A program made the position numbers and the translations under genes. A stretch of 64,000 nucleotides of DNA from Streptomonospora mangrovi (GTDB taxonomy: Bacteria > Actinomycetota > Actinomycetes > Streptosporangiales > Streptosporangiaceae), in contig NZ_JAJAQC010000009.1 in the NCBI RefSeq assembly GCF_027604915.1, forward strand, positions 1 to 64,000, written 5' to 3'. This document shows positions 8,199 through 59,792 of the stretch, piece by piece; the first letter of the stretch is position 1, and each line of letters begins with the position of its first letter. Under the pieces are notes generated by a model, which worked only from the letters and a program-made list of their open reading frames with translations, searched no databases and was not told the origin of the DNA.

Positions 8199-8271
8199 GT
8201 GCGGCTGCCGGCCCGAACGCGCGAACCGCCGGCCCCCAACGGCGGCGGACAGGCAGAAAGGAACCCCAGCC

Positions 8272-9123
8272 ATGCTGCTCCCCCCCCATCCCCCAGCGGC
8301 CGGGCCGCGCCGGCGTCCGCGCCGGCCGCACCCCCCGCGCCGGCCGCCGCACCTGGGCGGCGGCGGGTGCGGCCGCCCTGGCAGCCGCCGCGCTCCTCAC
8401 CGGCGGCGTCCCCTCCGCCGCGGCCGACACCGGCGCTCCGTCGGTGGCCGCGCGCGAGACGCTGTGCGACAAGTACGCCTCCACCCGCGTCGACGGCGGG
8501 CGCTACATCGTGCAGAACAACGTCTGGGGCGCCGACACCCGGCAGTGCGTCGAGGTCAACGGCACGTCCTTCCGCGTCACCACCGCCGACCACAACAACT
8601 CCACCAGCGGCGCCCCCGCCGGTTACCCCTCCATCTACGTCGGCTGCCACTACCGCAACTGCACCATCGGCAGCGGCCTGCCGGTGCAGGTCAGCCGCAT
8701 GAACACCGTCACCAGCAGTTGGCAGACCAGTTCGCCCTCCACCGGCGTCTACAACGTCGCCTACGACCTGTGGTACGACGCCGACCCCAACGCCCCCGCG
8801 CAGAACGACGCCGAGCTGATGATCTGGCTGAAGTACCAGGGCGGCGTCCAGCCCATCGGTCAGCGGGTGGCCACCGGGGTTTCGGTCGCCGGTGCCACCT
8901 GGGACATCTGGCAGGGCAACATCGGCTGGAACGTCATCAGCTTCATCCGCACCACCCCCACCGACTCCGTCTCGGGGCTGGACCTCACCGCCTTCACCGA
9001 CGTCGCCGTGGCCCGCGGCGCGGTCCGCCCGGAGTGGTACCTCACCAGCATCCAGGCCGGTTCGAGCCCTGGCGGGGCGGCGCCGGACTCGCCACGCACT
9101 CCTTCTCGACCACCGTCCGCTGA
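8272..9123 (+). pseudogene. GH12 endo-beta-1,4-glucanase, two frameshifts
   Basis: The mature domain is a clear secreted GH12 cellulase: NNVWGADTRQCVEVNG, AYDLWYDADP, then AELMIWLKYQGG with the catalytic nucleophile Glu, and WYLTSIQAG near the end. The natural start is the ATG at 8272 after AGAAAGGAA, but that frame is lost in a run of eight C (8280-8287). Removing one C restores a twin-Arg-like, Ala-rich signal peptide ending PSAAADT. A second shift lies near 9060: adding one T converts QAGSSPGG into QAGFEPWRGGAGL and reaches the TGA at 9121. That segment holds the acid/base Glu. As written the gene cannot give an active exported enzyme. Sequencing error in homopolymers is likely, true decay possible. 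The CelR/CebR operator precedes it. Confidence 0.85.
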
Positions 9124-9258
9124 CCCCCGGCGGCCGGTCGCCTGGGTTTCTCCTGGTCACCGCTTGGTTAAGGCTCTGGACTTCCCCGCCTCCACCCATC
9201 AGGATCAACCACGTCACATAGTCATTAACCACGTATTTCGGGCGAGGGGAGTCTGCGG

Positions 9259-38538: not shown

Positions 38539-39189
38539 ATGAGCCCTCCCTCGGCCACCCGCGAGGACGTGCGCACACGCGCCGGCGCCCTCGTCTCCGC
38601 GATCCGCGACCTCCTGGACAAGCCCGGAGACCGGGCCCAGGTCCGCCGCGCCGTGGGCATGGACCCCGCCGATCCCCGCTGCTGGGACGCCTACGCCCAC
38701 GTCGAGAAGCACCTGCCGGCCAAGCGCGACGAGGCCACCGAGCGCGCGTTCCTCGCCGTGGCGGCCCTCATCGCCGACCAGCCGCCCACCGCCCGCGCCA
38801 ACGACCTGGGCCGCGGACCGGGCGATGTCGACGCCACCACCGTGCCGGGCGAACCCGGCTCCCCTTTCACCGGCAACCTCGGGGTCACCCTCGCCCACGC
38901 CGTCGAACGCAAAGCCGTAGGCGACAAGGCCGCCAAGGAACGCCTGCACCTGCTGTGCCGGCAGAACCTGCACGGCGCCCACCGCCAACTCCCGCGCCTG
39001 ATCGCCTACCTGCGCAACCAGAACCTGCGCGTGGACTGGGTGCAGCTCGCCTGCGACCTGGCCGACTGGCAGCGCGACCACGACCGCGTCGTCAAGAACT
39101 GGCTCCAGGGCTACCACCGCACCCGCCACCTCCTCGAGGCCCAGCGCAAGAAGAACGCCCAGACCGACCGAACGGACGAAACCCCATGA
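38539..39189 (+). CDS. casB: Cascade small subunit Cse2/Cas11e
   Basis: This 216-residue helical protein is present as a dimer in Cascade and stabilises the crRNA and the displaced strand. Family marks are LRRAVGMDP-like VRRAVGMDPADPRCWDAY, LFAL-type helices AFLAVAALIADQ, and NLGVTLAHAVER with RLHLLCRQNLHGAHRQLPRL, the basic surface. The last ATGA overlaps the cas7 start. The spacing is typical of type I-E operons. Confidence 0.95.
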   Translation: MSPPSATREDVRTRAGALVSAIRDLLDKPGDRAQVRRAVGMDPADPRCWDAYAHVEKHLPAKRDEATERAFLAVAALIADQPPTARANDLGRGPGDVDATTVPGEPGSPFTGNLGVTLAHAVERKAVGDKAAKERLHLLCRQNLHGAHRQLPRLIAYLRNQNLRVDWVQLACDLADWQRDHDRVVKNWLQGYHRTRHLLEAQRKKNAQTDRTDETP

Positions 39190-40331
39190 GCGACCCCCGG
39201 TACATCGACATCCACGCGCTGCAAACCGTCCCCTACTCCAACCTCAACCGCGACGACCAGGGCGCACCCAAGACCGTGGTCTTCGGCGGGGCCGAACGCA
39301 CCCGCATCTCCAGCCAGAGCTGGAAGCGCGTGATCCGCCGCAGCGTGGAGGAGGCCGTGGGTGACCCGGCCGTGCGCACCCGCCGCGTGGTGCGCGGTGT
39401 GGCCGAACGCCTCCAGGCGCGGGGGTGGCCCCAGGAGGAGGCCGAGGCCGCCGGGCGCCAGGTCGCCCGCTCGGCCGGCAACGGCATCAAGCTGGAGCGC
39501 AGCAAGGACGAGCGCGACACCGAGGTGCTGACCACCTCGGTCCTGCTGTACCTGCCCGAGGCCGGCCTGGAAAACCTGACCGCCATCGCCGAGGCCCACC
39601 GCGAGGCCGTGGTCGCCGAGGAGGCCAAGCCCGAGGCCAAGCGCAAGGGCGTCCTGCCCTCAGAAGAGATCGCCGAGGTGCTGGGGCGGCGCAGCGCCGC
39701 CATCAACCTGTTCGGGCGCATGCTCGCCGAACTCCCCGGCGCCAACGTCGACGGCGCGGTGCAGTTCGCCCACGCCTTCACCACCCACGCCACCAGCATC
39801 GAGTACGACTTCTTCGCCGCCGTGGACGACGTGGAGGAGCAACTGAGCATCCCCGGCAGCGGCCACATCAACACCGCCATGTTCAGCGCCGGCACCTTCT
39901 ACCGCTACGCCAACGTCGACCTGCGCGGGCTGGCCGCCAACCTCGGCGCCGACACCACCACCGCCCGCGACCTGGTCACCGCGTTCCTGCACGCGTTCAT
40001 CCTCACCCTGCCCACCGGCAAGACCACCTCCACCGCACCGGCCACCCTGCCCGACCTCGTCCACATCGCCGTCCGCGACGACCGGCCGGTCTCCCTGGCC
40101 GCCGCCTTCGAGGCGCCCGTGGGCGCCACCGAGGGCCACCTCGCCCCCTCCCAGGGGCGCCTGGACTCCTACGCCGCCGAACTCACCACCCTGCTGGGCG
40201 CCGACCACCGGCTGTGGGCCGGGCACACCGCCACCCTCGCCAAGGCCGACCATCTCGGCGCCAAGCACCCCTCCTTCGACCGCCTGGTCGCCGACGCCGT
40301 GGAGGCCGCCTACCCCCGGGCCGCGGCGTGA
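39186..40331 (+). CDS. cas7e: Cascade backbone subunit Cas7e (Cse4)
   Basis: This 381-residue RAMP-like protein polymerises along the crRNA spacer. It starts YIDIHALQTVPYSNLNRDD, the usual Cas7e N-terminus, followed by KTVVFGGAERTRISSQSWKR. FGRMLAE and GAVQFAHAFTTHATS are further signatures. The start overlaps cse2 by 4 bases, and the stop overlaps the cas5 GTG by 4 bases, so subunit synthesis is coupled. No loss or insertion was seen. Confidence 0.97.
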   Translation: MSDPRYIDIHALQTVPYSNLNRDDQGAPKTVVFGGAERTRISSQSWKRVIRRSVEEAVGDPAVRTRRVVRGVAERLQARGWPQEEAEAAGRQVARSAGNGIKLERSKDERDTEVLTTSVLLYLPEAGLENLTAIAEAHREAVVAEEAKPEAKRKGVLPSEEIAEVLGRRSAAINLFGRMLAELPGANVDGAVQFAHAFTTHATSIEYDFFAAVDDVEEQLSIPGSGHINTAMFSAGTFYRYANVDLRGLAANLGADTTTARDLVTAFLHAFILTLPTGKTTSTAPATLPDLVHIAVRDDRPVSLAAAFEAPVGATEGHLAPSQGRLDSYAAELTTLLGADHRLWAGHTATLAKADHLGAKHPSFDRLVADAVEAAYPRAAA

Positions 40332-41080
40332 GCGGGCTGCTGCTGCGCCTGGCCGCCCCCTTGCAGAGCTGGGGGGAGCACAGCGCCTTCGGCGAGCGCG
40401 ACACCGCCCCCCACCCCACCCGGTCGGGGCTGCTGGGCATGCTGGCCGCCGCGCACGGCATCGCCCGCGGCCAGGACCTGGGCGGCCTGCACCAGCTCGC
40501 CTTCACAGTGCGGGTGGACCGCCCCGGCGTGCGCACGGTCGACTTCCACACCGTGGGCGGCGGCTACCCGCGCACCCGCACGGTGCTCACAGCCGAGGGC
40601 AAGCGGCAGAGCGCGGCCACCGCCACCATCGTCACCCGCCGCCACTACCTGGCCGACGCCGTCTTCACCGTTGCCGTCACCGGACCGGAGGAGACCATCG
40701 AGCGCGCCCGCGCGGCCCTGCGCGCCCCGCACTGGCAGCCCTACCTGGGGCGGCGCTCCTGCGTGCCCGAGCAGCCGCTGCTGCTGGAGGCGCTGGTGGC
40801 CGACCCCGTCGCCGAGCTGGCCCGGGTGCCCGTGGCCCGCGCCGCCCCCCGCGGCGCCGACCACCTCGACCTGCCCCTCATCAGCGACGGCGCCCATGAC
40901 GACGCCCGCCAGATCAGCGAGCTCTACGACAACCCCACGGTGTTCACGCGCCACGACCGCCGCTACGGTCTGCGCTCGGTCAGCGAGACCACCGTCGCCG
41001 TGGCCGCCGAGGACTGCCACTTCCGCCCCGACGACTTCCGCCGCGCCCTGGCGAAATACCTGCACGAGGCACACCGATGA
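40328..41080 (+). CDS. cas5e: Cascade subunit Cas5e
   Basis: This 250-residue RAMP protein caps the 5' handle of the crRNA. It starts at a GTG within the cas7 stop (GTGA), giving VSGLLLRLAAPLQSWGEHSAF, the standard Cas5e beginning. PTRSGLLGMLAAAHGI, the DRPG region and YLGRRSCVPEQPLL follow. The C-terminal part is well preserved to YLHEAHR. Its ATGA end overlaps the cas6e start. Confidence 0.96.
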   Translation: MSGLLLRLAAPLQSWGEHSAFGERDTAPHPTRSGLLGMLAAAHGIARGQDLGGLHQLAFTVRVDRPGVRTVDFHTVGGGYPRTRTVLTAEGKRQSAATATIVTRRHYLADAVFTVAVTGPEETIERARAALRAPHWQPYLGRRSCVPEQPLLLEALVADPVAELARVPVARAAPRGADHLDLPLISDGAHDDARQISELYDNPTVFTRHDRRYGLRSVSETTVAVAAEDCHFRPDDFRRALAKYLHEAHR

Positions 41081-41724
41081 AGGCATGGCTCACCCGCATC
41101 GCGCTCAACCACCGCCACCCGGGCGTGCACGCCCTGGTCGGCGACGCCAACCTGCTCCACCGCGAACTGATGCGGCTGGCCCCCGACGACCTGGGCGAGC
41201 ACCCCCGCCAGGCCGCCGGCCTGCTCTACCGCCTGGAGACCGGCCCCAGTGGCGTCCACATCCTCGCCCAGACCACCCTGGAGCCCCGCACCGACCGGCT
41301 CACTGGCGGGCTGGCCGCCTCGGTGGCCGTCCGCGAGCTGACCCCGCTGCTGGACGCCCTGACCGCCGGGGCGCGGGTGCGCTACCGCATCACCGCCAAC
41401 CCCACCCAGCGCGTGGGCAACTCCACCGACAACCCCGCCCGCAAGGGCAAACTCACCGTGGTCTTCGGGCAGCGCGGCGAACTGTGGTGGCTTGAGCGCG
41501 CCACCGGCCTCGGCCTGCACCCCCTCAGCGTCGACCAGACCCGCCTGGCCGACATCCGCGTCGGCGCGGTGCGCCACGCCGCCACCCGTTTCGAGGGCAC
41601 CGGAGTGGTCACCGACCCCCAGGCGCTGCGCGGCGCCGTCATCGAGGGCATCGGGCGCGCCAAGTCCTACGGCTGCGGCCTGCTCAGCCTGGGCCTTGAC
41701 CGCACGGCGGGGGGCACCCCCTGA
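41077..41724 (+). CDS. cas6e: crRNA endonuclease Cas6e (Cse3)
   Basis: This 215-residue RAMP endonuclease cuts pre-crRNA at the base of the repeat hairpin and stays bound. The N-terminus WLTRIALNHRHPGVHALVGD contains the region of the active-site Tyr/His in homologues, here rich in His (residues 12, 14 and 18), and LLHRELM follows. The C-terminal Gly-rich RNA loop GIGRAKSYGCGLLSLG is intact. It overlaps cas5 by 4 bases and cas1 by 1 base. It must process both repeat variants in the window, which differ only at repeat position 3. Confidence 0.95.
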   Translation: MKAWLTRIALNHRHPGVHALVGDANLLHRELMRLAPDDLGEHPRQAAGLLYRLETGPSGVHILAQTTLEPRTDRLTGGLAASVAVRELTPLLDALTAGARVRYRITANPTQRVGNSTDNPARKGKLTVVFGQRGELWWLERATGLGLHPLSVDQTRLADIRVGAVRHAATRFEGTGVVTDPQALRGAVIEGIGRAKSYGCGLLSLGLDRTAGGTP

Positions 41725-42704
41725 TGGCGGGCTACTACACCAGCGCCCGCCGCGCCCTGTCGGCGCCAACGCTGGCGATGCTGCCGCGCATCGCCGACTC
41801 GCTGTCATTCCTGTACCTGGAGAACGTGCGCGTGGTCCAGGACGACACCGGCGTGTGCGCCCAGGTCGTCAAGGCCGACGGCACAGTTGACCGCGTCCAC
41901 ATCCCGGTGGCCGCGCTGTCGTGCGTCCTCATGGGCACCGGAACCTCGGCCACCCAGCCGGCCATGGCGACCATGGCCCGCCACGGCGCCACCGTGCTGT
42001 GGACCGGCGCGGGCGGGGTGCGGCTGTATGCGGCGGCCCAGTCCAGCGAACTCACCACCCACTGGCTGGAGCGCCAGGCCCGCGCCTGGGCCGACGACAC
42101 CGCCCGCCTGGCCGTGGCGACACGCATGTACGCGCTGCGGTTCGCCACCGAGGTGCCTCCGGGCACCACGCTGGCGCAGTTGCGCGGGTTGGAGGGCCAG
42201 CGCATGAAGGTGTTGTACCAGATGCTGGCCGAACGGCACCGGCTGCGCGGGTTCAAACGCAACTACGACCCCCACAACTGGGACGAGCAGAATCCCGTCA
42301 ACCAGGCGCTTTCGGCCGCGAACACGGCACTGTACGGCGTCGTCCACGCCGCGATCCTGGCGCTGGGATGCTCGCCGGCGCTGGGGTTCGTGCACAGCGG
42401 AAAGCAGCACGCCTTCGTCTACGACGTCGCCGACCTCTACAAGGCCGAGCACACGGTGCCGCTGGCCTTCGCGCTGCACAAGTCAGCGCGCCCGGAGCGG
42501 GACGCGCGGTGGCGGCTGCGTGAGCAGTTCCGGCTCTACCGGCTGATGCCCACGATCGTCGCCGACATCCAGCGCCTGCTGGCGCCCGAGTTGGAGGTGG
42601 AGGCGGATGAGGGCGCGGAGAACCCCGAACTCGTCCACCTGTGGGATCCCGACCTGGGGGAAGTGGCGGCCGGGGTCAACCACGCCACCGAGCCGGACTG
42701 GTAG
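41724..42704 (+). CDS. cas1: Cas1e integrase
   Basis: This 326-residue adaptation integrase has the conserved metal ligands: Glu in LRGLEGQRMK (near 155), His in GFVHSGKQHAFVYD (near 222) and the Asp pair in VYDVADLYK (near 232-235). It begins LPRIADSLSFLYLEN, as Cas1e does. The 1-base overlap TGATG couples it with cas6e. The C-terminus extends about 20 residues past the usual end with an acidic tail. Four arrays with intact leaders in this window suggest that it is or recently was functional. Confidence 0.97.
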   Translation: MAGYYTSARRALSAPTLAMLPRIADSLSFLYLENVRVVQDDTGVCAQVVKADGTVDRVHIPVAALSCVLMGTGTSATQPAMATMARHGATVLWTGAGGVRLYAAAQSSELTTHWLERQARAWADDTARLAVATRMYALRFATEVPPGTTLAQLRGLEGQRMKVLYQMLAERHRLRGFKRNYDPHNWDEQNPVNQALSAANTALYGVVHAAILALGCSPALGFVHSGKQHAFVYDVADLYKAEHTVPLAFALHKSARPERDARWRLREQFRLYRLMPTIVADIQRLLAPELEVEADEGAENPELVHLWDPDLGEVAAGVNHATEPDW

Positions 42705-42713
42705 GCGGACGCG

Positions 42714-43022
42714 ATGCCCAACCTGGTCGTCATCTCCACCACCGCCGTCCCCGACCACGTCCGCGGGGCCTTGACACGCTGGCTGACCGAACCGGCGGCC
42801 GGTCTGTATGTGGGCACTGTGTCGGCCAAGGTCCGCGACCGCCTCTGGGACGCGGTCAGCGCGTCGGTGGGGGAGGGAGCGGCGGTGTGCGTGCACCCGG
42901 CCGACAACGAGCAGCGCTACACGATCAAAACGGCCGGCGAGAGCCGGCGCCGCATCCTCGACTTCGAGGGCTTGCAGTTGATCGCATTCGAAGGGGAAAA
43001 CGGCGATCAGCCGGAGTCATGA
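42714..43022 (+). CDS. cas2: Cas2e, CRISPR adaptation partner of Cas1
   Basis: This 102-residue protein has the Cas2e pattern VVISTTAVPDHVRGALTRWL, then AGLYVGTVSAKVRDRLWDAV and a C-terminal arm that binds Cas1. Cas2e lacks some of the acidic residues of nuclease-type Cas2 and serves as a structural bridge for prespacers. It starts 9 bases after cas1 and ends about 110 bases before array 3, so its 3' end borders that leader. Confidence 0.95.
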   Translation: MPNLVVISTTAVPDHVRGALTRWLTEPAAGLYVGTVSAKVRDRLWDAVSASVGEGAAVCVHPADNEQRYTIKTAGESRRRILDFEGLQLIAFEGENGDQPES

Positions 43023-43069
43023 CACTGCGGGTCCGCGTTCGCGACCGACCGGATAGAACAATCCGAACG

Positions 43070-43132
43070 GATTACTTAACAGTAAGTAATCAGAACGGTA
43101 TTCTAGTCGCCTAAAATCCCAGTTCAGGAAGT
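43070..43132 (+). promoter_or_regulatory. CRISPR leader of array 3
   Basis: Two dyads are present. GATTACTT / AAGTAATC (43070-43091) has a 6-base loop. Directly after it comes AGAA-CGGTA-TTCT, centred at 43098, exactly 35 bp before the first repeat, as in the other leaders. The TAAAATCCCAGTTCAG block downstream is a diverged form of the sequence in leaders 1 and 4. Confidence 0.75.
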
Positions 43133-45237
43133 GTCCTCTCCACGCACGTGGAGGTGAACCGCCAGCTTCGCGGGCGCCGCTGAGGACCTGGTGGTCCTCT
43201 CCACGCACGTGGAGGTGAACCGTCACGGTCCCCTGTGGCCGCGCGGAGGACTACGTCCTCTCCACGCACGTGGAGGTGAACCGGCGCGCACCGTCGGTTT
43301 CTAGGAATGGAGTCCGTCCTCTCCACGCACGTGGAGGTGAACCGGAGCCATCGATGAGTGACCACACCGCCCCCGTGTCCTCTCCACGCACGTGGAGGTG
43401 AACCGCTTGGCGGTCTCGCGGTCCCACCAGCCGATGCGTCCTCTCCACGCACGTGGAGGTGAACCGAGAGCAGCCCGTAGATGCGGCCGCGCGCGAGCGT
43501 CCTCTCCACGCACGTGGAGGTGAACCGACGATGGCGAAAACCAGGGCGGGCATGATGCGGTCCTCTCCACGCACGTGGAGGTGAACCGTCGGGGCTGCTG
43601 AAGGCGGTCCGGACGGCGGTGTCCTCTCCACGCACGTGGAGGTGAACCGCCCCCTACGAGCGTCTGGAGGCTCCCGTGGAGGTCCTCTCCACGCACGTGG
43701 AGGTGAACCGCTCCAGCAGATCGGCATGCCGTTCGAGTGGCTGTCCTCTCCACGCACGTGGAGGTGAACCGTCGAACGTCGGCACGTGTGCGAGCGGGTC
43801 ACCGTCCTCTCCACGCACGTGGAGGTGAACCGACCGCCGACAACCAACCTGAGTAGCTGAGCCAGTCCTCTCCACGCACGTGGAGGTGAACCACGGTGGG
43901 GGCCTTTTTCATGGACTGGGGTGGGGTCCTCTCCACGCACGTGGAGGTGAACCGATGTGCGCCGTCAGGTAAACGTCGCCCGGTGGGTCCTCTCCACGCA
44001 CGTGGAGGTGAACCGCACTCACAACCGCAACTTCCGGCCAGAGCTTGGTCCTCTCCACGCACGTGGAGGTGAACCGCACATGGCCAACCCCGACGAGCAG
44101 TGGGACGAGTCCTCTCCACGCACGTGGAGGTGAACCAGACGAGAGCCCCCGGCGGCCTTGACCGCCGGGGGTCCTCTCCACGCACGTGGAGGTGAACCGA
44201 AGAACGAGAGCCTGTGGCGGGTCCACTGCGCGTCCTCTCCACGCACGTGGAGGTGAACCGGGGAGGTCTACCTCATCCCCGTGCTCACCTCCGTCCTCTC
44301 CACGCACGTGGAGGTGAACCGAAACCGCGAACGCGGTCATGCAATTCCAGTCCGTCCTCTCCACGCACGTGGAGGTGAACCGCGGCACGGCGCATTCTCA
44401 CACGCATGATGCTGGTCCTCTCCACGCACGTGGAGGTGAACCGGTACCGGAGGTGGCGGACGCGCTCCGGCTCCCGTCCTCTCCACGCACGTGGAGGTGA
44501 ACCGGGTGCGCCCGGCGGACACCAGCGCGATGCCGTGTCCTCTCCACGCACGTGGAGGTGAACCGTTCCGCGCCGACCTCACCAAGAGCCTGGAGCGGTC
44601 CTCTCCACGCACGTGGAGGTGAACCGGCGTCCCACTTCGGGGTGGGCATGTCGGGGTCGTCCTCTCCACGCACGTGGAGGTGAACCGCCCAATGCGCCGG
44701 CGCAGGCCAGCACGACGGCGTCCTCTCCACGCACGTGGAGGTGAACCGCCCAATGCGCCGGCGCAGGCCAGCACGACGGCGTCCTCTCCACGCACGTGGA
44801 GGTGAACCGCCATGCGTCGGCCGACGCAATCACCTGGTTTAGTCCTCTCCACGCACGTGGAGGTGAACCGCACGAAAAACGCCCCGCCCCACTTCGGTGG
44901 GGGTCCTCTCCACGCACGTGGAGGTGAACCGCACCACCGGCACACCGGTGATCGTGCCCCGGGGTCCTCTCCACGCACGTGGAGGTGAACCACCTCGCCG
45001 ACGCCGCCCGCCGCGTGGAGTTCCGGTCCTCTCCACGCACGTGGAGGTGAACCGAATCCGCCGCCCCCATCGCCCCCTGGCCGCGCGTCCTCTCCACGCA
45101 CGTGGAGGTGAACCGGCGCGGATGGTGGGGCACGGCCAGTCGGTATCGTCCTCTCCACGCACGTGGAGGTGAACCGCGGTCGCCGAGGTCGGCGATACCC
45201 GCAAGCGCGTCCTCTCCACGCACGTGGAGGTGAGTCG
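43133..45237 (+). CRISPR. Type I-E CRISPR array 3: 35 repeats, 34 spacers
   Basis: The repeat is identical to that of array 1 except for C instead of G at position 3 (GTCCTCTCC), uniformly across the array. Spacers are 32 bases except two of 33 (after the repeats at 44109 and 44964); both of those repeats end in A instead of G. Another A-ending repeat starts at 43865. The spacers after 44659 and 44720 are identical. The last repeat (45209) ends GAGTCG, the worn distal end. It lies directly downstream of cas2. Confidence 0.98.
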
Positions 45238-50424: not shown

Positions 50425-51003
50425 TCAGAGGGAGTCGACCGTCGCGTCGATCACCCGGGCGAGTCGGTCCGGCCCCTGGGCGATGCGGGACACCAGGCGC
50501 ATCCCCACGACGGTGTTCATCAGCATGCTCCCGAGTGCGACGGGGTCCCGCCCCGGGTCAATCTCTCCCGCCCGCTGCCCCTCCGCCACCAGGGCCTGGA
50601 ATGCCTCCTCGGTGCGGTCGAGCATCCGGCGCAGCACCTCGGCTGCCTCCTGGTCGATGCCGGCCCGTTCGGCCGCGGTGTTCACTGCCAGGCAGCCACG
50701 GTGATCCGGGTCGGCCAGGTCCATCTCGGCCAGCGCTGTGAGTGCCACGCGCAGCCGCTGCTTCACGGGGCCCGGCTGCTCCAGTGTCTCGACCAGTGCC
50801 TCGGTCTGGCTGTCCCGGTACCGACGCAGTGCTCGCAGGAAGAGTGCTTGCTTGCTGCCGAACGCGTTGTACAGGCTGCCCTTTCCGATGCCGAGCGCGT
50901 CCACCAGGTCCTGGGGGGTGGTGGCGGCGTACCCCTTCCTCCAGAACACCTCCATCGCCCGGTCGACGGCGATCTCCGGATCGAACTCCTTCGGTCTTGC
51001 CAT
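50425..51003 (-). CDS. TetR-family repressor
   Basis: This 192-residue regulator has an N-terminal helix-turn-helix (about 10-55: RAMEVFWRKGYAATTPQDLV, then GIGKGSLYNAFGSKQALF) and a helical ligand domain of the AcrR/YcdC-like type with GCLAVNTAAERAG. The ATG at 51003 is used. It precedes the SDR gene in the same direction and likely represses both, with shared motifs at 51018-51037 and 50362-50381. The inducer is unknown. Confidence 0.92.
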   Translation of the reverse strand: MARPKEFDPEIAVDRAMEVFWRKGYAATTPQDLVDALGIGKGSLYNAFGSKQALFLRALRRYRDSQTEALVETLEQPGPVKQRLRVALTALAEMDLADPDHRGCLAVNTAAERAGIDQEAAEVLRRMLDRTEEAFQALVAEGQRAGEIDPGRDPVALGSMLMNTVVGMRLVSRIAQGPDRLARVIDATVDSL

Positions 51004-52092: not shown

Positions 52093-52854
52093 GTGTCAGC
52101 GATTGGCGCATGGGGCGACCCCGGGATAGCGCGAGCGTATGCGTCGTGGGAGCGGCCCGCCTACTGGCTATTGGGATACCCCTTCCTCTTCCGCTCCCTG
52201 GGGCTTGACGATCCGGCGGCGGACGACGGCCCTGTGGTCGACCTGGGGTGCGGGCACGGCGCGGTGGCCGCTCACGTGGCCCAGCGCTTCGGTTGCCCGG
52301 TCGTGGCGGCCGACCCCTCGCCCGCCATGGTGGAGATCGCCCGCCGCGAGTACGCCCATCCCCGGGTGGAGTACCAGTTGATGGCCGACCAGCGCCTCGA
52401 CCTCCCCGGCTCCGTCGCACGTGCCGCCTACAGCGCCTTCGTCTTCGCGGCCGTGCCGACGCGCGCCGCGCTCGGTGCTCTGGCCGATGAGGCCGCCCGC
52501 GTGCTGCGCCCCGGCGCGCGGTTCTGCGTCCTCGACATGAATCCCGCGAGTGCCGGTACGGCCACTCCACGGAGCCGCATCGGCACTCCAGGGCGCGTCT
52601 ACGCCGAGGGCGAGCCCCTCGTCGCCGTCCTGCGCCCCAAGGAAGGTCCGGAACTGCACCTGAACGCCTACCACTGGCCCGCCCGCGTCTACACCGAGGT
52701 CCTGGGCGGGGCCGGGTTCACCGACCTGCGCACCGAGCGGCCCACCCTCGCCGACGCGCCCGGTGTGGCCGACCCCGACCTGCTCGCCTCCCACCGCCTG
52801 CCCCTGGACCCCTCGGCCTCCCCTTTCATCGTCGTCACAGGGACCCGCGCCTAG
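52093..52854 (+). CDS. Class I SAM-dependent methyltransferase, paralog 1
   Basis: This 253-residue methyltransferase has motif I VVDLGCGHG (48-56), the acidic end of beta2 in VVAADPSPAMVEIARREY, MADQRLDLPGS (motif II region) and VLRPGARFCVLDMNP (motif III). The start is GTG 52093 with GGAG upstream. It shares most of its sequence with the next gene, a tandem duplication. Downstream QueC, QueD and FolE suggest that the acceptor is a deazapurine or pterin; this is inference from context only. Confidence 0.85.
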   Translation: MSAIGAWGDPGIARAYASWERPAYWLLGYPFLFRSLGLDDPAADDGPVVDLGCGHGAVAAHVAQRFGCPVVAADPSPAMVEIARREYAHPRVEYQLMADQRLDLPGSVARAAYSAFVFAAVPTRAALGALADEAARVLRPGARFCVLDMNPASAGTATPRSRIGTPGRVYAEGEPLVAVLRPKEGPELHLNAYHWPARVYTEVLGGAGFTDLRTERPTLADAPGVADPDLLASHRLPLDPSASPFIVVTGTRA

Positions 52855-52905
52855 CGCACCACGGTCCGGGCGGTCCGCGCCCGGACCCCGACAGATCGGA
52901 CGGTC

Positions 52906-53664
52906 ATGGCCCTCACCGGATCGTGGAGCGACCCCCGGGTGGCGTCCGCCTACGCCTCCTACGACCGCGCCCTGGGCTGGGCCCTGGGCTTTCCGTTCGT
53001 CTTCCGCGCCCTCGGGCTGAACGGAGTGGCCGACGACGCCCCGGTGGTCGACGTCGGCTGCGGCCACGGCGCGGTCGCCCGGCGCACGGCCGAACTCTTC
53101 GGCTGCCCGGTCGTGGCGGCCGACCCCTCGCCCGCCATGCTGGAGATCGCCCGCCGCGACTACGCCCATCCCCGGGTGGAGTACCGCCTGATGGCCGACC
53201 AGCGCCTCGACCTCCCCGGCTCCGTCGCCCGCGCCGCCTACAGCGCCTTCGTCTTCGTCAACCTGCCCACCCGCGCCGCGCTGGTGGAACTGGCGGGGGA
53301 GGCCGCCCGCGTGCTGCGCCCCGGCGCGCGGTTCTGCGTCCTGGACGTGAACCCCGCCAACGCCGGTGCGCGCGCGGGCAGGGGCCGCTTCGGCGACCCC
53401 GGACGCTCCTACTCCGAGGGCGAGCCCCTGACCTCCGTCCTGCACACACCCGACGGCACCACCCTCGAACTGGCCAACTACCACTGGCCCGCCCACGTCT
53501 ACACCGAGGTCCTGGGCGAGGCCGGCTTCACCGACATACGGGCCGAAACCCCCACGCTCGCCGACGCGCGCGGCGTGGCCCACTCCGAACCACTCGACTC
53601 CAAGAACTGGCCCCTGGGCCCCGACACGGCCCCCTTCATCGTCGTCAGCGGCACGCGCCCCTGA
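52906..53664 (+). CDS. Class I SAM-dependent methyltransferase, paralog 2
   Basis: This 252-residue copy repeats the architecture of the preceding gene: SWSDPRVASAYASYDRALGW, motif I VVDVGCGHG, then stretches identical to paralog 1 (for example AHPRVEY and LMADQRLDLPGSVARAAYSA). Differences concentrate in the N-terminal substrate lid and in the segment after motif III (NAGARAGRGRFGDPG), as expected for methylation at two different positions. The start is ATG 52906, 51 bases after paralog 1. Confidence 0.85.
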   Translation: MALTGSWSDPRVASAYASYDRALGWALGFPFVFRALGLNGVADDAPVVDVGCGHGAVARRTAELFGCPVVAADPSPAMLEIARRDYAHPRVEYRLMADQRLDLPGSVARAAYSAFVFVNLPTRAALVELAGEAARVLRPGARFCVLDVNPANAGARAGRGRFGDPGRSYSEGEPLTSVLHTPDGTTLELANYHWPAHVYTEVLGEAGFTDIRAETPTLADARGVAHSEPLDSKNWPLGPDTAPFIVVSGTRP

Positions 53665-53725
53665 CCGCCGCGGCCGCCCCCGCGGTCGCGACGGTCCTCC
53701 CGGTCCCCTCGGAGAGGAACTCCTG

Positions 53726-55114
53726 GTGAACGTCATCGGAGCGGTATCCCGGCCCCCGGACTCCGCGGCGTGGGACGAACTGCGCGCGAGCGTCGCGGGG
53801 CGGGTGCTGGTGCCGGGCGACCCCGACTACGACGACGCCCGAAGCCTGGCCGACCCCCGCTTCCGGCTCGTCCGGCCCAGCGCCGTCGTGCGCTGCGCCG
53901 GCACCGACGACGTGCGCGCCGCGCTCGCCTTCGCCCGGCGGCACCGGCTCACCCCGCGCCCGCGTTCGGGCGGCCACAGCTACGCCGGCTACTCCACCGG
54001 CCCCGGCCTGGTCGTCGACGTCTCCCTGATGGACGCCGTCGAGGTCGAGGGCGAGACCGCCCGCGTGGCCGCCGGGGCGCGCAGCGGAGCGGTCGCCCGG
54101 GTGTTGCAGGACCACGGTCGGCTGCTTCCCCTGGGCACCTGCCCCGGAGTGGGCATCGCGGGGCTGGCGCTCGGCGGCGGCATGGGGACGGTCGGCCGCC
54201 GCTACGGGCTGACCCTCGACCACGTGCGCGCGGCCCGGATCGTCCTGGCCGACGGCCGGGTGCTCGACTGCACCCCCGACTCCCACGCCGACCTGCTGTG
54301 GGCGCTGCGCGGTGCCGGGGCGGGCAACTTCGGGGTGGTCACCCGGTTCACCTTCCGCACCCGGACCGCGCCGACCGTCCACAGCTTCCTGCTCGAATGG
54401 CCGTGGCGGCACGCGGCCGCGGTGCTGGAAGCCTGGCAGGGGTGGGCACCGGACCTCCCCGACTGCATGTCCACCCAGGCCGCCCTGCGCGTGGCCCAGG
54501 CGCGGGTCACCGTCACCGGCGCGTGGCTGGGCGGCGCGGACGGGTCCGCCGCGTACCTCGACCAATTCGTGGGGGCGGTGGGACACGAACCCCACCGCAC
54601 CGCGCGCGGCTCCTCCACCTACCCCGAGTCGATCGACTTCCTGTGGGAGGGCCTGGCCGTGGGCTCCTCCGGCCCCCCGCCCCGCGCCTTCCACCGCGAC
54701 GACCTCCTCACCCGCCCGCTGCCGTCCCGCGCGGTGGCGGACCTCCTCGGCCGGCTCGGCGCCGACCGCCCCGCGGGCCAGGAACGCTACTGCGTGCTGG
54801 ACCTGATGGGCGGCGCCTACGGACACGACCCCGACACCGCGTGGTCGCACCGCTCCTGCCTGTTCGACGTCCGTTACCGCGCCGCGGTCCCGGCCGGTGC
54901 GGACCTGGCCGACGCGCTCGCCGCCCGCGCGTGGGCCGACTCCTTCGCGCGCGCGTTGGCGCCCTGGGCCTGCGGCCAGTCCTACCAGAACCACATCAGC
55001 GCGGCCCGGCCCGACTGGGCCCGCGCCTACTACGGCGACCACCTCGACCGGCTGCGCCACGTCAAGGCCGCCTACGATCCCGACCGCCTCTTCCGCTACC
55101 CGCAGGGGATCTGA
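53726..55114 (+). CDS. FAD-linked oxidase, berberine-bridge type, bicovalent flavin predicted
   Basis: This 462-residue oxidoreductase has the PCMH/FAD_binding_4 fold. His84 in RSGGHSYAGY and Cys139 in LGTCPGVGIAGLALGGG are at the places that bind FAD through 8-alpha-His and 6-S-Cys in the bicovalent subgroup. The C-terminal BBE motif YQNHISAARP...YYGDHLDRLRHVK is present. No signal peptide is seen, so it acts in the cytoplasm. Such oxidases use O2 for two- or four-electron oxidation of secondary metabolites. It starts at GTG 53726 behind GGAGAGGA and lies 4 bases before the amidohydrolase gene, in the same operon. Confidence 0.88.
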   Translation: MNVIGAVSRPPDSAAWDELRASVAGRVLVPGDPDYDDARSLADPRFRLVRPSAVVRCAGTDDVRAALAFARRHRLTPRPRSGGHSYAGYSTGPGLVVDVSLMDAVEVEGETARVAAGARSGAVARVLQDHGRLLPLGTCPGVGIAGLALGGGMGTVGRRYGLTLDHVRAARIVLADGRVLDCTPDSHADLLWALRGAGAGNFGVVTRFTFRTRTAPTVHSFLLEWPWRHAAAVLEAWQGWAPDLPDCMSTQAALRVAQARVTVTGAWLGGADGSAAYLDQFVGAVGHEPHRTARGSSTYPESIDFLWEGLAVGSSGPPPRAFHRDDLLTRPLPSRAVADLLGRLGADRPAGQERYCVLDLMGGAYGHDPDTAWSHRSCLFDVRYRAAVPAGADLADALAARAWADSFARALAPWACGQSYQNHISAARPDWARAYYGDHLDRLRHVKAAYDPDRLFRYPQGI

Positions 55115-55118
55115 GCAC

Positions 55119-56639
55119 ATGTCCGACCGGTCCGCCCGCGCACCGGGGCGCGTCAGCCACCGGGGTATCGTCCTGCACTTCACCGGGGATCCCGACGACC
55201 CCGAACACGGCGCCGAGCACACCCACCTCTACGAGGACGGCGTCCTCGTGGTCGAGGACGGCCGCGTCGTCCACGCCGGGCGCTGGCACGACCGGCCGCG
55301 CGTTCCCGGTGCGCCCGAGAGGGTCGAGGACCACCGCGGCGACCTCATCCTGCCGGGGTTCGTCGACACCCACGTCCACGCCGCGCAGATCGACGTGATG
55401 GGCACCCCCGGCGCGCAGTTGCTGCCCTGGCTGACCCAGCGGGTCTACCCCGCCGAACTGCGGTTCCGCGACCCCGCCTATGCCGCGGCCGCCGCGCGCG
55501 ACCTGCTGGGCATGCTCCTGGCCGCGGGCACCACCACCGCCGTGGTCTCCACCTCCACCCACCCCGACGCCGCCGAGGCGTTCTTCGCCGAGGCGCTCGC
55601 CCTGGACCTGCGCGTGGTGGCGGGCAAGGAGCTGATGGACGCCTGCGGCACCTCCTCGGGCGGGCCGGTGCCCGACGCGCTCCTCGACCCCACCTGGGAG
55701 AAGGGGCACGAGGCGACGGTGGACCTCGCCCGGCGCTTCCACGGCCGCAGGGGCGCCCCTCACGACCCCTACGGCTCCAGCCGGATCGGCTACTGCGTCA
55801 GCCCGCGCACCGCCGCGACCTCCACCCTGCCCGCGCTGGAGGCCGCCGGCGCCCTGTACCGGGAGTCGGCGGCCGCGGGCGAGCCGCTGTGGGCGCAGGG
55901 ACACCTGATGGAGAACCGGTACGAGGCCGACCGCGTGCTCGGCCTGCTCTGCGGCCGAGGCGTGCACGCCCGCTCCTACCTGGACGTGTTCGACCGCTGC
56001 GGACTCGTCGGCCCCCGCAGCGTGTGGGCGCACTGCGTGTGGCTCGGCGAGGACTACCCCACCACCCCCGCCTCCTGCCCCCACCGCCCCGCCGGCGGAG
56101 CCGACCTCGACCGCGAACTCCTGCGCGAACGCGGCGCGGGCGTCGCCTTCTGCCCGACGTCCAACCTGTACCTTGGCAGCGGCTTCTTCCCCCTGCACCG
56201 CCTGCGCGGCGACGGCGTCCCGGTCGGCCTGGGCACCGACATCGGGGCGGGCACCGGCTTCTCCCCGCTGCGCGCCCTGCACGACGCCTACACCGCGACC
56301 GTCCTGGGCAACGGCTTTCCCGCCGAGCGCCCCACCGGCCCGCGGCGCTCGCTCTCGGCCCTGCGCGGCCTGTACCTGGCCACCCGTGGCGGAGCCGAAG
56401 CGCTCGGCCTCCAGGGCGTCATCGGCGGCTTCTCCCCGGGCTGCGAGGCCGACTTCACCGTCCTGGACCTGGGTGCCACCCCGGCCCTGCGGCGCCGCAT
56501 GGACACCGCGCACGACGTGCACGACATGCTCTTCGCCCTCATGGTCCTGGGCGACGAACGCAGTGTGCGCACCACCTACGTGACAGGGCGGCCGCTCTAC
56601 CGGCGCGGCGCCGACCCCTACACCCCGTACCCGACCTGA
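55119..56639 (+). CDS. Amidohydrolase of the guanine deaminase family
   Basis: This 506-residue metal-dependent deaminase has the zinc motif ILPGFVDTHVHAAQ (79-90 around DTHVH), then HLMEN (His plus the catalytic Glu of guanine deaminases), a further His in WAHCVWLGEDY and the metal Asp in GLGTDIGAGTGFSPL. The family converts guanine to xanthine. It is longer than common GuaD and has an extra charged insertion near 320-345. In this cluster it could act on preQ0 or another 7-deazaguanine, giving a 7-deazaxanthine, or simply on guanine. The neighbours favour the former, but sequence alone cannot decide. Confidence 0.83.
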   Translation: MSDRSARAPGRVSHRGIVLHFTGDPDDPEHGAEHTHLYEDGVLVVEDGRVVHAGRWHDRPRVPGAPERVEDHRGDLILPGFVDTHVHAAQIDVMGTPGAQLLPWLTQRVYPAELRFRDPAYAAAAARDLLGMLLAAGTTTAVVSTSTHPDAAEAFFAEALALDLRVVAGKELMDACGTSSGGPVPDALLDPTWEKGHEATVDLARRFHGRRGAPHDPYGSSRIGYCVSPRTAATSTLPALEAAGALYRESAAAGEPLWAQGHLMENRYEADRVLGLLCGRGVHARSYLDVFDRCGLVGPRSVWAHCVWLGEDYPTTPASCPHRPAGGADLDRELLRERGAGVAFCPTSNLYLGSGFFPLHRLRGDGVPVGLGTDIGAGTGFSPLRALHDAYTATVLGNGFPAERPTGPRRSLSALRGLYLATRGGAEALGLQGVIGGFSPGCEADFTVLDLGATPALRRRMDTAHDVHDMLFALMVLGDERSVRTTYVTGRPLYRRGADPYTPYPT

Positions 56640-56649
56640 GGAGCAGCCG

Positions 56650-57459
56650 ATGCCCGCTTCCCCGCCCCGCCGACCGGCCGACGCGTGCGGTGGAACCGAC
56701 TCCCGCGCCCGCCGGGAGGACCCCGTGACGCCGCGCGAGCACGAGAAGCCGTTGGCGGTGGTGGTCTTCTCCGGTGGCCTGGACTCCACGGTCCTGGCCA
56801 CCCACTACCGCGCCACCCACACCCTGCTCCTGCTGTCGTTCGACTACGGCCAGCGGCACCGCGGGGGAGAGTTGCGGGCGGCACGGGAGATCGCCGCCCA
56901 CCTCGGAGCCGAGCACCACGTCATCGGCATGCGCGGCCTGGGAGCCCTGCTCACCGGGTGCAGCCTCACCGATCCGTCCCACGACGTCCCCGAGGCGCTT
57001 AACGCCGACGCGGTGCGGGCGATCACGATCCCCAACCGCAACGCCCTGATCACCGACGCCGCGGCGGGCGTGGCCATGGCGCGCGGAGCCGAACTCGTGG
57101 CCCTGGGGGTGCACCGGGTCCCCGTCGGCGACCCCTACCCCCTGCCGGACGCCTCCCCGCGGTTCTTCGCCGCCTACCGCGGCATGATCCGCGTGGCCGC
57201 CGGCGAGTTCCCGGTCCCGCGGGTGGAAACCCCCTTCATCGGCATGGCCAAGAAGGACATCGTCGCCCACGGCCACGCGCTGTCCGCCCCGCTGGGCAGG
57301 AGCTGGACCTGCTACCTCGACGGCCCCGCGCAGTGCGGCCGGTGCTTCGCCTGCCTGACCCGGCGCCGTGCCTTCGCCGACGCCGGGGTACCGGATCCGA
57401 CCGCGTACGAGAAGGAGAGCGTGCATGACGCACCGCATTCGAGTCCGGCACAACTTTGA
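56650..57459 (+). CDS. queC: QueC, 7-cyano-7-deazaguanine (preQ0) synthase
   Basis: This 269-residue ATP-dependent enzyme turns 7-carboxy-7-deazaguanine and ammonia into preQ0. It shows the PP-loop VVFSGGLDSTVLA (38-50), SFDYGQRHRGGE, and the zinc site CGRCFACLTRRRAF near the end, with the preceding Cys in SWTCYLDG. The ATG at 56650 follows GAGGAG; the GTG at 56725 behind GGGAGGA would give a start closer to other QueC proteins. The 3' end overlaps queD by 35 bases. Confidence 0.93.
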   Translation: MPASPPRRPADACGGTDSRARREDPVTPREHEKPLAVVVFSGGLDSTVLATHYRATHTLLLLSFDYGQRHRGGELRAAREIAAHLGAEHHVIGMRGLGALLTGCSLTDPSHDVPEALNADAVRAITIPNRNALITDAAAGVAMARGAELVALGVHRVPVGDPYPLPDASPRFFAAYRGMIRVAAGEFPVPRVETPFIGMAKKDIVAHGHALSAPLGRSWTCYLDGPAQCGRCFACLTRRRAFADAGVPDPTAYEKESVHDAPHSSPAQL

Positions 57460-57949
57460 GACCGCCCACCGGCTGCCCCATCTGGGTGGGAAGTGCGTGA
57501 ACCTGCACGGCCACTCCTGGTGGGCCGAGGTCAGCGTGAGCGCGCCGGCCCTGGCGGGCGACGGCACCGTCGTCGAGTTCGGCGCCTTCAAGAAGGCGCT
57601 GCGTGCCTTCGTCGACACCCATCTCGACCACGGGGCCATGCTCGGCGCCGACGACCCCCTGGCCGCGTTCCTGCTGGAGCAGGGCAGCAAGGTCTACCGG
57701 TTCGGGGAATCCGCTCCCGCCGAGGCCGAGCGCTACGCCCGCGACCTGCCCCACCCCACCGTCGAGGCCGTCGCCGTGATGCTGGGCCGGGTCGCCGAGG
57801 ACCTGCTCGGTCGGCAGGAGCGTGCGGCGGGCGCCCGCGTGACCGCTGTCGAGGTCACCGAGACCCACGTCAACACGGCGGAGTACCGCCCCGCGACCTC
57901 CCCCGCCGCCCGCGAGCGCTCCGTCGAGCGCGTCCTGGCCGCCGACTGA
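57425..57949 (+). CDS. queD: QueD, 6-carboxy-5,6,7,8-tetrahydropterin synthase
   Basis: This 174-residue PTPS-fold enzyme uses dihydroneopterin triphosphate. The QueD-specific CxxxHGH appears as CVNLHGH (about 24-30), with the earlier zinc His in HNFETAHRLP. The later HLDHGAML carries the catalytic His/Asp region, and VEVTETHVNTAEY the pterin-binding Glu. The ATG at 57425 lies inside the queC reading frame with AAGGAGAG upstream. Together with FolE it covers the first two committed steps of deazaguanine synthesis. Confidence 0.93.
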   Translation: MTHRIRVRHNFETAHRLPHLGGKCVNLHGHSWWAEVSVSAPALAGDGTVVEFGAFKKALRAFVDTHLDHGAMLGADDPLAAFLLEQGSKVYRFGESAPAEAERYARDLPHPTVEAVAVMLGRVAEDLLGRQERAAGARVTAVEVTETHVNTAEYRPATSPAARERSVERVLAAD

Positions 57950-57968
57950 CTCCCAGGAAGGAAAGCCC

Positions 57969-58574
57969 ATGACCCTTGACAGGCTGAGCGACGTCTCCGC
58001 CCTCATCGACGCCGAGGACACCGAGGCCCAGGAGCACGCCCGCCGCATGATGGCCGCCCTCGGCCTGCCGGTGACCGAGTCCGGCATGGCCGACACCCCC
58101 CGGCGCCTGGTCCGGGCGCTGCGGGAGTTCACCGCCGGGATGCACGAGGACCCCGCGCGCCACCTGCGGGTGACGTTCCCGCCTGAGGCCGAGGAACCGG
58201 GCATCATCGCGGTCACCGCGGTCCCGTTCGTCTCGGTGTGCGAGCACCACCTGCTGCCGTTCACCGGCCGCGCGAACGTCGCCTACGTGCCCGCCCTCAA
58301 GGCGCCCATCGTCGGGCTGTCCAAGCTCGCCAGGCTGGTGCGCGGGTACGCGGCCCGCCCCCAAGTGCAGGAGCGTCTGGGGGAGCAGGTCGTCGAGGCG
58401 CTGTGCACCCGGCTGGACAGCGTGGGAGCGGCGTGCCGGATCTCCGCCGAGCACTCCTGCATGACCCTGCGCGGAGCCAGGGCCGAGGGGGCGCAGATGG
58501 CGACCCTGCACCTGCGAGGGGTGTTCCAGACCGATCCGGTGATGCGGGACGCCTTCCTCGGCCTGGACCGGTGA
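57969..58574 (+). CDS. folE: GTP cyclohydrolase I
   Basis: This 201-residue enzyme forms dihydroneopterin triphosphate from GTP. Zinc ligands are in VCEHHLLPF and SAEHSCMTLRG; VGLSKLARLVRGYAARPQVQERL is the signature helix. The N-terminus is normal for family length. It ends the operon 19 bases after queD. The cell must also make folate, so a second folE elsewhere would show that this copy is dedicated to the cluster. GTP feeds both routes. Confidence 0.95.
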   Translation: MTLDRLSDVSALIDAEDTEAQEHARRMMAALGLPVTESGMADTPRRLVRALREFTAGMHEDPARHLRVTFPPEAEEPGIIAVTAVPFVSVCEHHLLPFTGRANVAYVPALKAPIVGLSKLARLVRGYAARPQVQERLGEQVVEALCTRLDSVGAACRISAEHSCMTLRGARAEGAQMATLHLRGVFQTDPVMRDAFLGLDR

Positions 58575-58761: not shown

Positions 58762-59703
58762 TCAGGGGCGGCGCAGGCGGTTGAGGGCGCCGCGGACTCC
58801 GGAGGCGGGCTTGATCGCGTCCAGGCGTGCCACCTGGTCGGCGGAGAGTTCGACCGAGCCGGCGGCAATGTTCTGCTCCAGGTGGGTGATCGAGGCCGTG
58901 CCCGGGATGAGCAGGACGTTGGGCGCGTGGTGCAGCAGCCAGGCCAGGCCGACCTGCGCGGGGCTCGCCCCGACCTCGCGGGCGACCCGCTGGACGACCG
59001 GCTCGTGGGTCACCTTCGCCGCGCCCGGGAAGGCGCCGCCGAGCGGGAAGTAGGGCGCCCACGAGATGCCCTCGGCGCGGGCGATGTCCAACACGGGCTC
59101 GTGTCCGCGGGCGGTCAGGCTGTACCGGTTCTGCACGGTCGCGATCCCGGCCGGCAGGGCCGCGCGCAGTTCGGCGGCGCTGACCGTGCTCAGGCCGATG
59201 TGGCCGATCAGCCCCTCGTCGCGCAGGGCGACCATCTCGGCGATCTGGTCGTCGAACCGCACCATCTGGGAGGGGAGCAGCGGAAAGGAGCCGGGCGCGA
59301 TGCGGCGCATGTTGACCACGTCCAGGCGTTCGACCTTGAGGCTGCGCAGGTTGGCGTGGACCTGCGCCCGCAGTTGCTCGGGCCGCTGGGCGGGGATCAT
59401 CGGCAGCGGGCCCCGCTCGGCGGGCCGGGCGCCGACCTTGGTCACGACCACCACGTCGTCCTCGGAGCCCAGGGCTTCGGCGAGGCAGCGGTTGGCGGTG
59501 CCGCCGCCGTAGAAGTCGGCGGTGTCGAAGTGGTTCACCCCCAGTTCACAGGCGCGGCGCAGCAGCCTGCGGGCCGCGTCGGGAGCGCTCACGCGCGGCA
59601 GTTGCATCGTGCCGTAGCCGACCCGGGCGACCTCGCGGCCGGCCAGGGTGAAGGAGCCGCCGGGGCGGGCGGGGACGGCGGAGCCGGGGGTGGAGTCGGT
59701 CAT
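58762..59703 (-). CDS. Aldo/keto reductase
   Basis: This 313-residue NADPH-dependent reductase has the TIM-barrel marks VGYGTMQLPRV, GVNHFDTADFYG (Asp and Tyr of the tetrad), VVVTKVGARP (Lys), IGHIGLSTV, and the NADP pocket LLIPGTASITHLEQN. The ATG at 59703 is used because the family N-terminus starts shortly after; GAGAGAG precedes it. It is divergent from a TetR gene across two palindromes, a common detoxification arrangement. It converges with folE, so it is probably not part of the deazapurine operon. Confidence 0.93.
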   Translation of the reverse strand: MTDSTPGSAVPARPGGSFTLAGREVARVGYGTMQLPRVSAPDAARRLLRRACELGVNHFDTADFYGGGTANRCLAEALGSEDDVVVVTKVGARPAERGPLPMIPAQRPEQLRAQVHANLRSLKVERLDVVNMRRIAPGSFPLLPSQMVRFDDQIAEMVALRDEGLIGHIGLSTVSAAELRAALPAGIATVQNRYSLTARGHEPVLDIARAEGISWAPYFPLGGAFPGAAKVTHEPVVQRVAREVGASPAQVGLAWLLHHAPNVLLIPGTASITHLEQNIAAGSVELSADQVARLDAIKPASGVRGALNRLRRP

Positions 59704-59739
59704 CGCGCGGGCTCTCTCTCGTGAGATCATGGAGCATGA

Positions 59740-59792
59740 ACCGGAGGATCCTCCGGTAAGCCCAGAATGCCACAACCGGAGGGTCCTCCGCT
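59740..59792. promoter_or_regulatory. Two palindromic TetR operators between the reductase and its repressor
   Basis: ACCGGAGGATCCTCCGGT (59740-59757) is a perfect 18-bp palindrome. ACCGGAGGGTCCTCCGCT (59775-59792) is a second copy with two changes that ends just before the TetR ATG. The copies are offset by 35 bp. The position suits control of both divergent genes. Confidence 0.85.

Follow-up and report, generated by a model that had tools for sequence, protein, structure and literature searches.

The toyocamycin/sangivamycin and tubercidin gene clusters share a FolE and QueD start, and the toyocamycin cluster also has a QueC (ToyM) that serves as nitrile synthase. According to the accessible part of PMC6112128, the toyocamycin and tubercidin clusters carry a QueE homologue (ToyC and TubB). 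Here we describe an operon of seven genes from Streptomonospora mangrovi (genome G000), located at positions 52093-58574 of a stretch of 64,000 nucleotides (the window, contig NZ_JAJAQC010000009.1), which has the FolE and QueD start in common with these clusters, but for which QueE was found neither in the cluster nor in the genome, and whose QueC-like protein has lost the QueC substrate motif. We consider it probable (roughly 0.62) that the operon encodes a QueE-free pteridine pathway; the core of its product is quite likely to be a pteridine rather than a 7-deazapurine. The 7-deazapurine reading is probably incorrect because no QueE was detected in the genome searches and because the QueC-like protein has lost the Tyr of the YPDC motif.

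The seven open genes are closely spaced on the + strand in the order MT1, MT2, FAD oxidase, amidohydrolase, QueC-like protein, QueD and FolE, and the QueC and QueD genes overlap by 35 bases (table 1). Coordinates, strand and Pfam families (Methyltransf_25/11 twice, FAD_binding_4 with BBE, Amidohydro_1, QueC, PTPS and GTP_cyclohydroI) agree with the co-directional arrangement reported in a first-pass annotation of the window. Third-position GC content is high in all seven genes, and the catalytic motifs are intact where inspected.

The absence of QueE from the window, which that annotation had already remarked on, extends to the whole of G000 (a draft of 6.36 Mb in 121 contigs, 99.99% complete) as far as it is searchable. 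Neither the TIGR04508-type QueE nor a canonical Kitasatospora QueE query had a match in this genome, and a 13-row QueE profile, which spans both QueE types (the second type being recognised by its Cys spacing, as assessed by eye), retrieved only the MoaA gene (E-value, E, 5e-4). The 13 Radical_SAM matches in G000 correspond to 12 proteins, one of which carries two. Eleven of these proteins fall in other families (MoaA, MiaB, HemW, RimO, TIGR03960, CofGH/FbiC, AmmeMemoRadiSam, LipA, RlmN, Rv2578c and KamA-like, the last scoring below its family cut-off), and one protein of 612 amino acids (aa) matched no named family at the threshold used. In the three genomes that hold related clusters, namely Nonomuraea sp. 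MG754425 (G006), [Actinomadura] parvosata (G007) and G505, the 13-row profile gave nothing better than E 5.9e-8, the weak match in G007 being PflA; as a positive contrast, the same profile recovers QueE at E 3.5e-47 or better in G440, G471, G003, G373 and G370. G006 and G007 were fully scored with the Kitasatospora QueE as well, and G505 was covered by the 13-row profile search alone.

The QueC-like protein resembles canonical QueC (PF06508 cluster 1 in the accessible part of PMC13329287) in its SGGxDS loop, YxQxH, PxRN, a Lys and a four-Cys zinc site (Cys221, 229, 232 and 235), and the spacing of the latter, C-x7-C-x2-C-x2-C, is the same as in actinobacterial QueCs. It differs in the lack of YPDC, in one residue inserted in YxQxHxxE, and in a score below the NCBIfam QueC cut-off (TIGR00364; 134.1 versus 150.3 bits). 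Three QueE-free QueCs (window, Nonomuraea and parvosata) were compared with 93 others; the stretch examined contains QueE for 63 of them and shows none for the other 30. All three keep SGGxDS, YGQRH, PxRN, Lys201, Tyr222 and the four zinc Cys residues. All three also differ at 17 positions at which the 93 show 94-100% constancy (104, 105, 116, 118, 122, 125, 127, 162, 165, 168, 218, 220, 224, 233, 234, 237 and 240). Thr125 is replaced by Ile, Tyr165 by Leu or Met, and Cys168 by Ala or Gly; the original residues are constant in 93 of 93 and are also retained by two solved QueCs. Thr218 has become Ser in all three, and their YxQxHxxE holds the inserted residue in an alignment whose rows include solved QueCs. 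The YPDC position reads LPDA in the window and MPDG in both close relatives, so that Asp is kept and Tyr and Cys are lost.

The lost Tyr has a known role. In E. coli QueC, preQ0 formation depends on Tyr131 of YPDC (Y131A is inactive, Y131F partly active) and also on Tyr35, Arg99 and Tyr189, as stated in the accessible part of a 2026 QueC-family study (PMC13329287). Equivalents of the last three are kept in the window enzyme (Tyr222 corresponds to E. coli Y189), and that of Tyr131 is lost. The 7-deazaguanine base is stacked on and read by a Tyr and an Asp, which are both replaced in QatC (PMC12424860, accessible part). In the tree, the three QueE-free QueCs form one clade within QueC (support 1.0, branch 0.73). 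Judged from its sequence, the enzyme appears to have kept the ATP and zinc chemistry and to have an altered substrate site, and it probably acts on a pterin or lumazine acid. FolE, QueD and QueC had been annotated as three of the four steps to preQ0; the three families are indeed present, but a QueC that lacks the YPDC Tyr and Cys fits that assignment poorly.

A second, degenerate QueC is present in the same genome on contig C50 (G000:C50:373-1062, L003), with a P450-like open reading frame (ORF) beside it. It has HGRGH for YGQRH, SPDC for YPDC and His for Tyr222, and by eye it is the orthologue of the QueC of G003, a genome of the same genus in which an intact FolE-QueD-QueE-QueC set lies near a nonribosomal peptide synthetase (NRPS)-like gene and QueE abuts QueC. 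A hidden QueE beside the C50 gene was rejected, as none was seen by eye in the three frames of that strand within the 372 bases to the contig end. The C50 QueC is likely a relict of a lost deazapurine pathway.

FolE and QueD, the start of the preQ0 route, are both present in the operon. CxxxHGH is the motif that sets QueD apart from 6-pyruvoyl synthases, and the PTPS domain of the window QueD has this and other motifs in common with the QueDs of QueE-bearing clusters. Its best solved matches, which are weak (E 5e-7), are named 6-carboxy-5,6,7,8-tetrahydropterin synthase. The protein scores below the NCBIfam TIGR03367 cut-off (62.5 versus 89.25 bits), and an insert ahead of PTVE may lower this score. 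The operon FolE is an extra copy; a stronger FolE is located on contig C56 of the same genome.

The remaining four enzymes agree with their first descriptions. The two methyltransferases are paralogues with 69% identity, and the methyltransferase of the G505 cluster shows 43-44% identity to them (44% to MT1). An AlphaFold model was made for MT1 only (predicted local distance difference test, pLDDT, 77.7); its top Foldseek match, by a small margin, is ToxA of B. glumae, and ranks 1-5 are all ToxA, crystallised with toxoflavin and demethyltoxoflavin. The toxoflavin ring resembles lumazine. The oxidase carries the GGHS (His) and GTCPGVG (Cys) motifs, which we take to be the sites of bicovalent flavin attachment, and it is 52% identical to the Nonomuraea oxidase (L019) and 53% to that of G505 (L157). 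The amidohydrolase scores above the NF006679 cut-off (417.4 versus 351 bits) and just short of that of TIGR02967 (371.4 versus 375.4), and its closest solved structure is guanine deaminase 6ohb. It has PRT where PRF stands in four of five aligned chains (6ohb, 2ood, 2uz9 and 6oh9); the fifth chain, 3e0l, is named guanine deaminase, is presumably a redesigned variant of that enzyme, and also lacks PRF (PGN). Pterin deaminases exist in the amidohydrolase superfamily; the term was not met among the literature matches listed.

Table 1. Genes of the seven-gene operon in the window (SAM, S-adenosylmethionine).
Feature	Coordinates	Strand	Family, motif or nearest structure
MT1, class I SAM methyltransferase, 253 aa	52093..52854	+	PF13649/PF08241
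MT2, class I SAM methyltransferase, 252 aa, MT1 paralogue	52906..53664	+	Pfam Methyltransf_25/11
FAD-dependent oxidase, BBE type	53726..55114	+	PF01565+PF08031; GGHS + GTCPGVG motifs
Guanine-deaminase-like amidohydrolase; proposed pterin deaminase	55119..56639	+	NF006679, nearest structure 6ohb
QueC-like ATP-dependent amide/nitrile synthase (putative)	56650..57459	+	PF06508
QueD-type 6-carboxytetrahydropterin synthase	57425..57949	+	PF01242
FolE, GTP cyclohydrolase I	57969..58574	+	PF01227

From this gene content we infer a route in which the substrates, the order of steps and the product are all predictions. FolE would convert GTP to dihydroneopterin triphosphate, and QueD would turn this into 6-carboxytetrahydropterin (CPH4). 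With no QueE there would be no ring contraction, so the six-membered pterin ring would stay. The QueC-like enzyme would adenylate the pterin 6-carboxylate and form from it the amide and then, probably, the nitrile. Aromatisation of the tetrahydropterin would be the task of the FAD oxidase, the guanine-deaminase-like enzyme would remove the 2-amino group (pterin to lumazine), and MT1 and MT2 would methylate ring nitrogens; the late steps may come in another order. The best single guess for the product, itself rather unlikely to be exact, is 1,3-dimethyllumazine-6-carbonitrile or its 6-carboxamide.

Related clusters were sought with QueC and with QueD. In a scan of genome contigs with QueC, from which the best 80 of at least 577 relatives were retained, the closest were those of Nonomuraea sp. 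MG754425 (63%) and [Actinomadura] parvosata (60%), and the rest of these 80 did not exceed 47%; 133 plasmid records had QueC-like matches, all below 60% identity. Both close relatives lie in QueE-free clusters with the order QueC-QueD-FolE, and in each genome the cluster QueC is the sole full-length QueC match (G007 has an extra partial match, E 9.5e-6). Among 340 genomes of the family, the QueC search at E 1e-45 found 15 places in 14 genomes, which are these two and 13 others, and in all 13 others QueE is present in the examined stretch. With QueD, 19 of 341 genomes of the same family matched, its own included. QueE occurs in the stretch at 11 of the other 18 loci (at L151 as part of a separate set some 6 kb away from QueD) and is absent from it at seven: L152 (G373), L153 (G006, Nonomuraea), L154 (G007, parvosata), L156 (G471), L157 (G505), L159 (G370) and L168 (G556). 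The whole-genome QueE search covered six of these seven, that is, all except L168.

The Nonomuraea cluster also has an O-methyltransferase-type protein, an acyl-CoA-dehydrogenase-like protein and the related oxidase. In G505, a single-contig genome with 6% contamination and no QueC match, the order is QueD, FolE, AMP-binding ligase, FAD oxidase and methyltransferase, with a truncated deaminase piece adjoining; this combination of QueD-FolE, oxidase and methyltransferase thus lacks both QueC and QueE and has an AMP-ligase instead, as would be expected if the carboxylate made by QueD is activated. The recurring core is QueD-FolE and an FAD oxidase, mostly also with QueC and a methyltransferase. 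The exact seven-gene order, for which a search in other genomes had been proposed, was not seen in any other locus examined in the contig scan, in six genomes of the genus, in the 340 and 341 genomes of the family (overlapping sets) or in 394 genomes of the class (QueD query), with 7, 10 and 8 first-look candidates scored per genome in the 340, 341 and 394 sets, respectively. A tentative joint proposal, whose odds fall somewhat short of even, is that the QueC-like enzyme became a pterin-6-carbonitrile/carboxamide synthase after the loss of QueE, that an N-methylated lumazine-6-nitrile or -amide is the product of the operon, and that QueD-FolE cassettes are interchangeable generators of pterin-6-carboxylate that feed QueC in some strains and, in one, an AMP-ligase.

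Other arrangements of QueD were met in these searches. At L151 (9401-10064, G440), the C-terminal piece of a window-type QueC (57%) survives as a remnant before an intact QueD that is 82% identical to that of the window, both near a FolE-QueE-QueC set. In L155, L156, L158 and L160, NRPS-like adenylation ORFs (by eye) some 1030-1130 aa long lie near QueD-FolE, three of the four have a QueE with long Cys spacing, and P450-like ORFs occur in L156 and L158; these four apparently represent another uncharacterised cluster type in the family. In L152, QueD adjoins a large NRPS-like adenylation ORF, and no FolE or QueE match was found in the stretch. Two loci from the class-level search were set aside: L191 (G981, 265-2312), which by eye has a QueD (60%), an amidohydrolase-like ORF beside it and a small PTPS-like ORF, and no FolE match on its 9-kb contig; and L192 (G833, 8097-9837), a FolE-QueE-QueD set that by eye is within a prophage and presumably serves DNA modification.

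A number of observations weigh against a QueE-free pteridine pathway. Local absence of QueE alone proves nothing, because L152, L156 and L159 lack it locally, yet their genomes have QueE elsewhere (E 1.6e-88 to 3.5e-47). The QueE profile scored 150 of 177, 192 and 191 first-look candidates in G006, G007 and G505, respectively, and the weak matches of G505 and G006 carry no family-scan identity. G000 and Nonomuraea (about 640 contigs) are drafts, and it has to be allowed that a gap could hide QueE. Nine of the changed QueC positions (116, 118, 122, 127, 162, 224, 233, 237 and 240) also vary in the QueE-adjacent QueC of L160, and solved QueCs show residues similar to the new ones at 105, 220 and 234; the clearly distinctive changes are therefore those at Thr125, Tyr165, Cys168 and Thr218 and the one insertion in YxQxHxxE. 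The three QueE-free QueCs also have in common Tyr163, two residues before the lost Tyr of YPDC, which might take over its job. In the parvosata cluster the FAD_binding_4 oxidase is a different one and no methyltransferase was recognised nearby, the deaminase is complete in the window cluster only, and the fold support from ToxA is weak (template-modelling score 0.61, 17% identity), other methyltransferases being nearly equal.

What other functions could the operon perform? A role confined to tRNA queuosine, together with tgt, had been weighed in the first-pass annotation; no TGT was found in 14 of 14 genomes, while 14 of 14 control genomes were positive, and tRNA queuosine service was therefore rejected as the purpose of the operon. 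That annotation's own product, an oxidised and methylated 7-deazaxanthine with the 7-cyano group, requires QueE, which was found neither in G000 nor in the three genomes with related clusters, and it is not supported. A methylated, oxidised 7-deazaxanthine could still arise from preQ0 if QueE lay in an unassembled gap, if a non-homologous enzyme replaced it, or if 7-carboxy-7-deazaguanine (CDG) or preQ0 were taken up. The operon does encode three of the four preQ0 enzymes, a guanine deaminase would suit 7-deazaguanine as well as a pterin, G003 of the same genus and other genomes own FolE-QueD-QueE-QueC sets, and the draft assembly includes the 612-aa radical-SAM protein without a family name. 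Against these points, QueE was not found in any of the four cluster-bearing genomes, one of which is a single contig, all three QueE-free QueCs have lost the YPDC Tyr and Cys, uptake would leave the FolE and QueD of the operon without a purpose, and the ring contraction by QueE is described as common to all deazapurine pathways (PMC6112128, accessible part); we give this alternative a small chance. The broader claim of an uncharacterised specialised cluster that methylates, oxidises and deaminates a heterocycle derived from GTP is retained, but not its 7-deazapurine core, as no QueE was found and the QueC has lost the Tyr and Cys of YPDC.

Also improbable is a variant of the pterin route in which the QueC-like enzyme links the 6-carboxylate not to ammonia but to some other amine (an amino acid or, as with Cap9, the N-terminus of a protein), so that an amide conjugate, for instance a lumazine peptide, is formed. 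Cap9, a member of the QueC family, couples a carboxylate to a protein amine (PMC12424860, accessible part), fungal lumazine-6-carboxylate peptides are known (PMC4377984, accessible part), and the AMP-ligase of G505 and, by eye, the adenylation ORF beside the L152 QueD point in the same direction; however, the seven genes code neither for an amine partner nor for a carrier protein or a condensation enzyme, and residues that are essential in two-step QueC are kept, Tyr222 among them. A decaying or chance neighbourhood whose genes no longer form a working pathway is very improbable: the related QueC of G440, reduced to a remnant next to an intact QueD, the truncated deaminase piece in G505 and the degenerate QueC on C50 would be in line with it, but the seven window genes are open, co-directional and high in third-position GC, with the checked catalytic motifs intact.

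The operon is bordered, as it looks, by an aldo/keto reductase gene on the right (58762-59775, other strand), with a TetR regulator beyond it, and on the left by a gene (50425-51003) that by eye is TetR-like. The window also contains a clustered regularly interspaced short palindromic repeats (CRISPR)-Cas locus at 38955-45237, by eye of type I-E, with cas7-, cas6-, cas1- and cas2-like ORFs up to 43022 and an array of period 61 from 43133.

FolE, QueD and QueC together are naturally read as a preQ0 maker; here the product is probably another one, so that naming by genes would mislabel the cluster. No bacterial pathway to an N-methylated lumazine-6-nitrile or -amide was met among the literature matches listed, and five names for cyano- or carbamoyl-pterins and -lumazines had no literature match. 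Natural products with an N-methyl lumazine-6-carboxylate are reported from fungi (PMC4377984, accessible part): the core of the penilumamides and terrelumamides is the N-methylated lumazine-6-carboxylate proposed for the operon, but they are fungal and peptide-linked, and the accessible main text of that paper contains no word with the stem 'biosynth'. The Photorhabdus NRPS-like/pteridine cluster (PMC5384830) resembles the operon in having FolE and a PTPS-family enzyme in a specialised cluster; it differs in that the enzyme is a 6-pyruvoyltetrahydropterin synthase and in its NRPS-type carrier and condensation domains, and the accessible part of the paper mentions no QueC. ToxA of the toxoflavin pathway is the best fold match to MT1, with weak sequence likeness (E 1e-3).

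Other roles for QueC have a precedent in the anti-phage proteins QatC and Cap9, which are repurposed QueCs, and in QatC the base-holding Tyr and Asp have likewise been replaced (PMC12424860, accessible part); unlike these, the window protein is about as long as plain QueC and its neighbours are metabolic enzymes. If the proposed pathway is true, the operon provides a natural test of base recognition by QueC and a bacterial route to N-methylated lumazines at the level of genes, and the short list of nitrile- or amide-forming enzymes (ToyM/QueC, ArtA/NitB, CalN and PesC; PMC13060819, accessible part) gains a member that has a new substrate.

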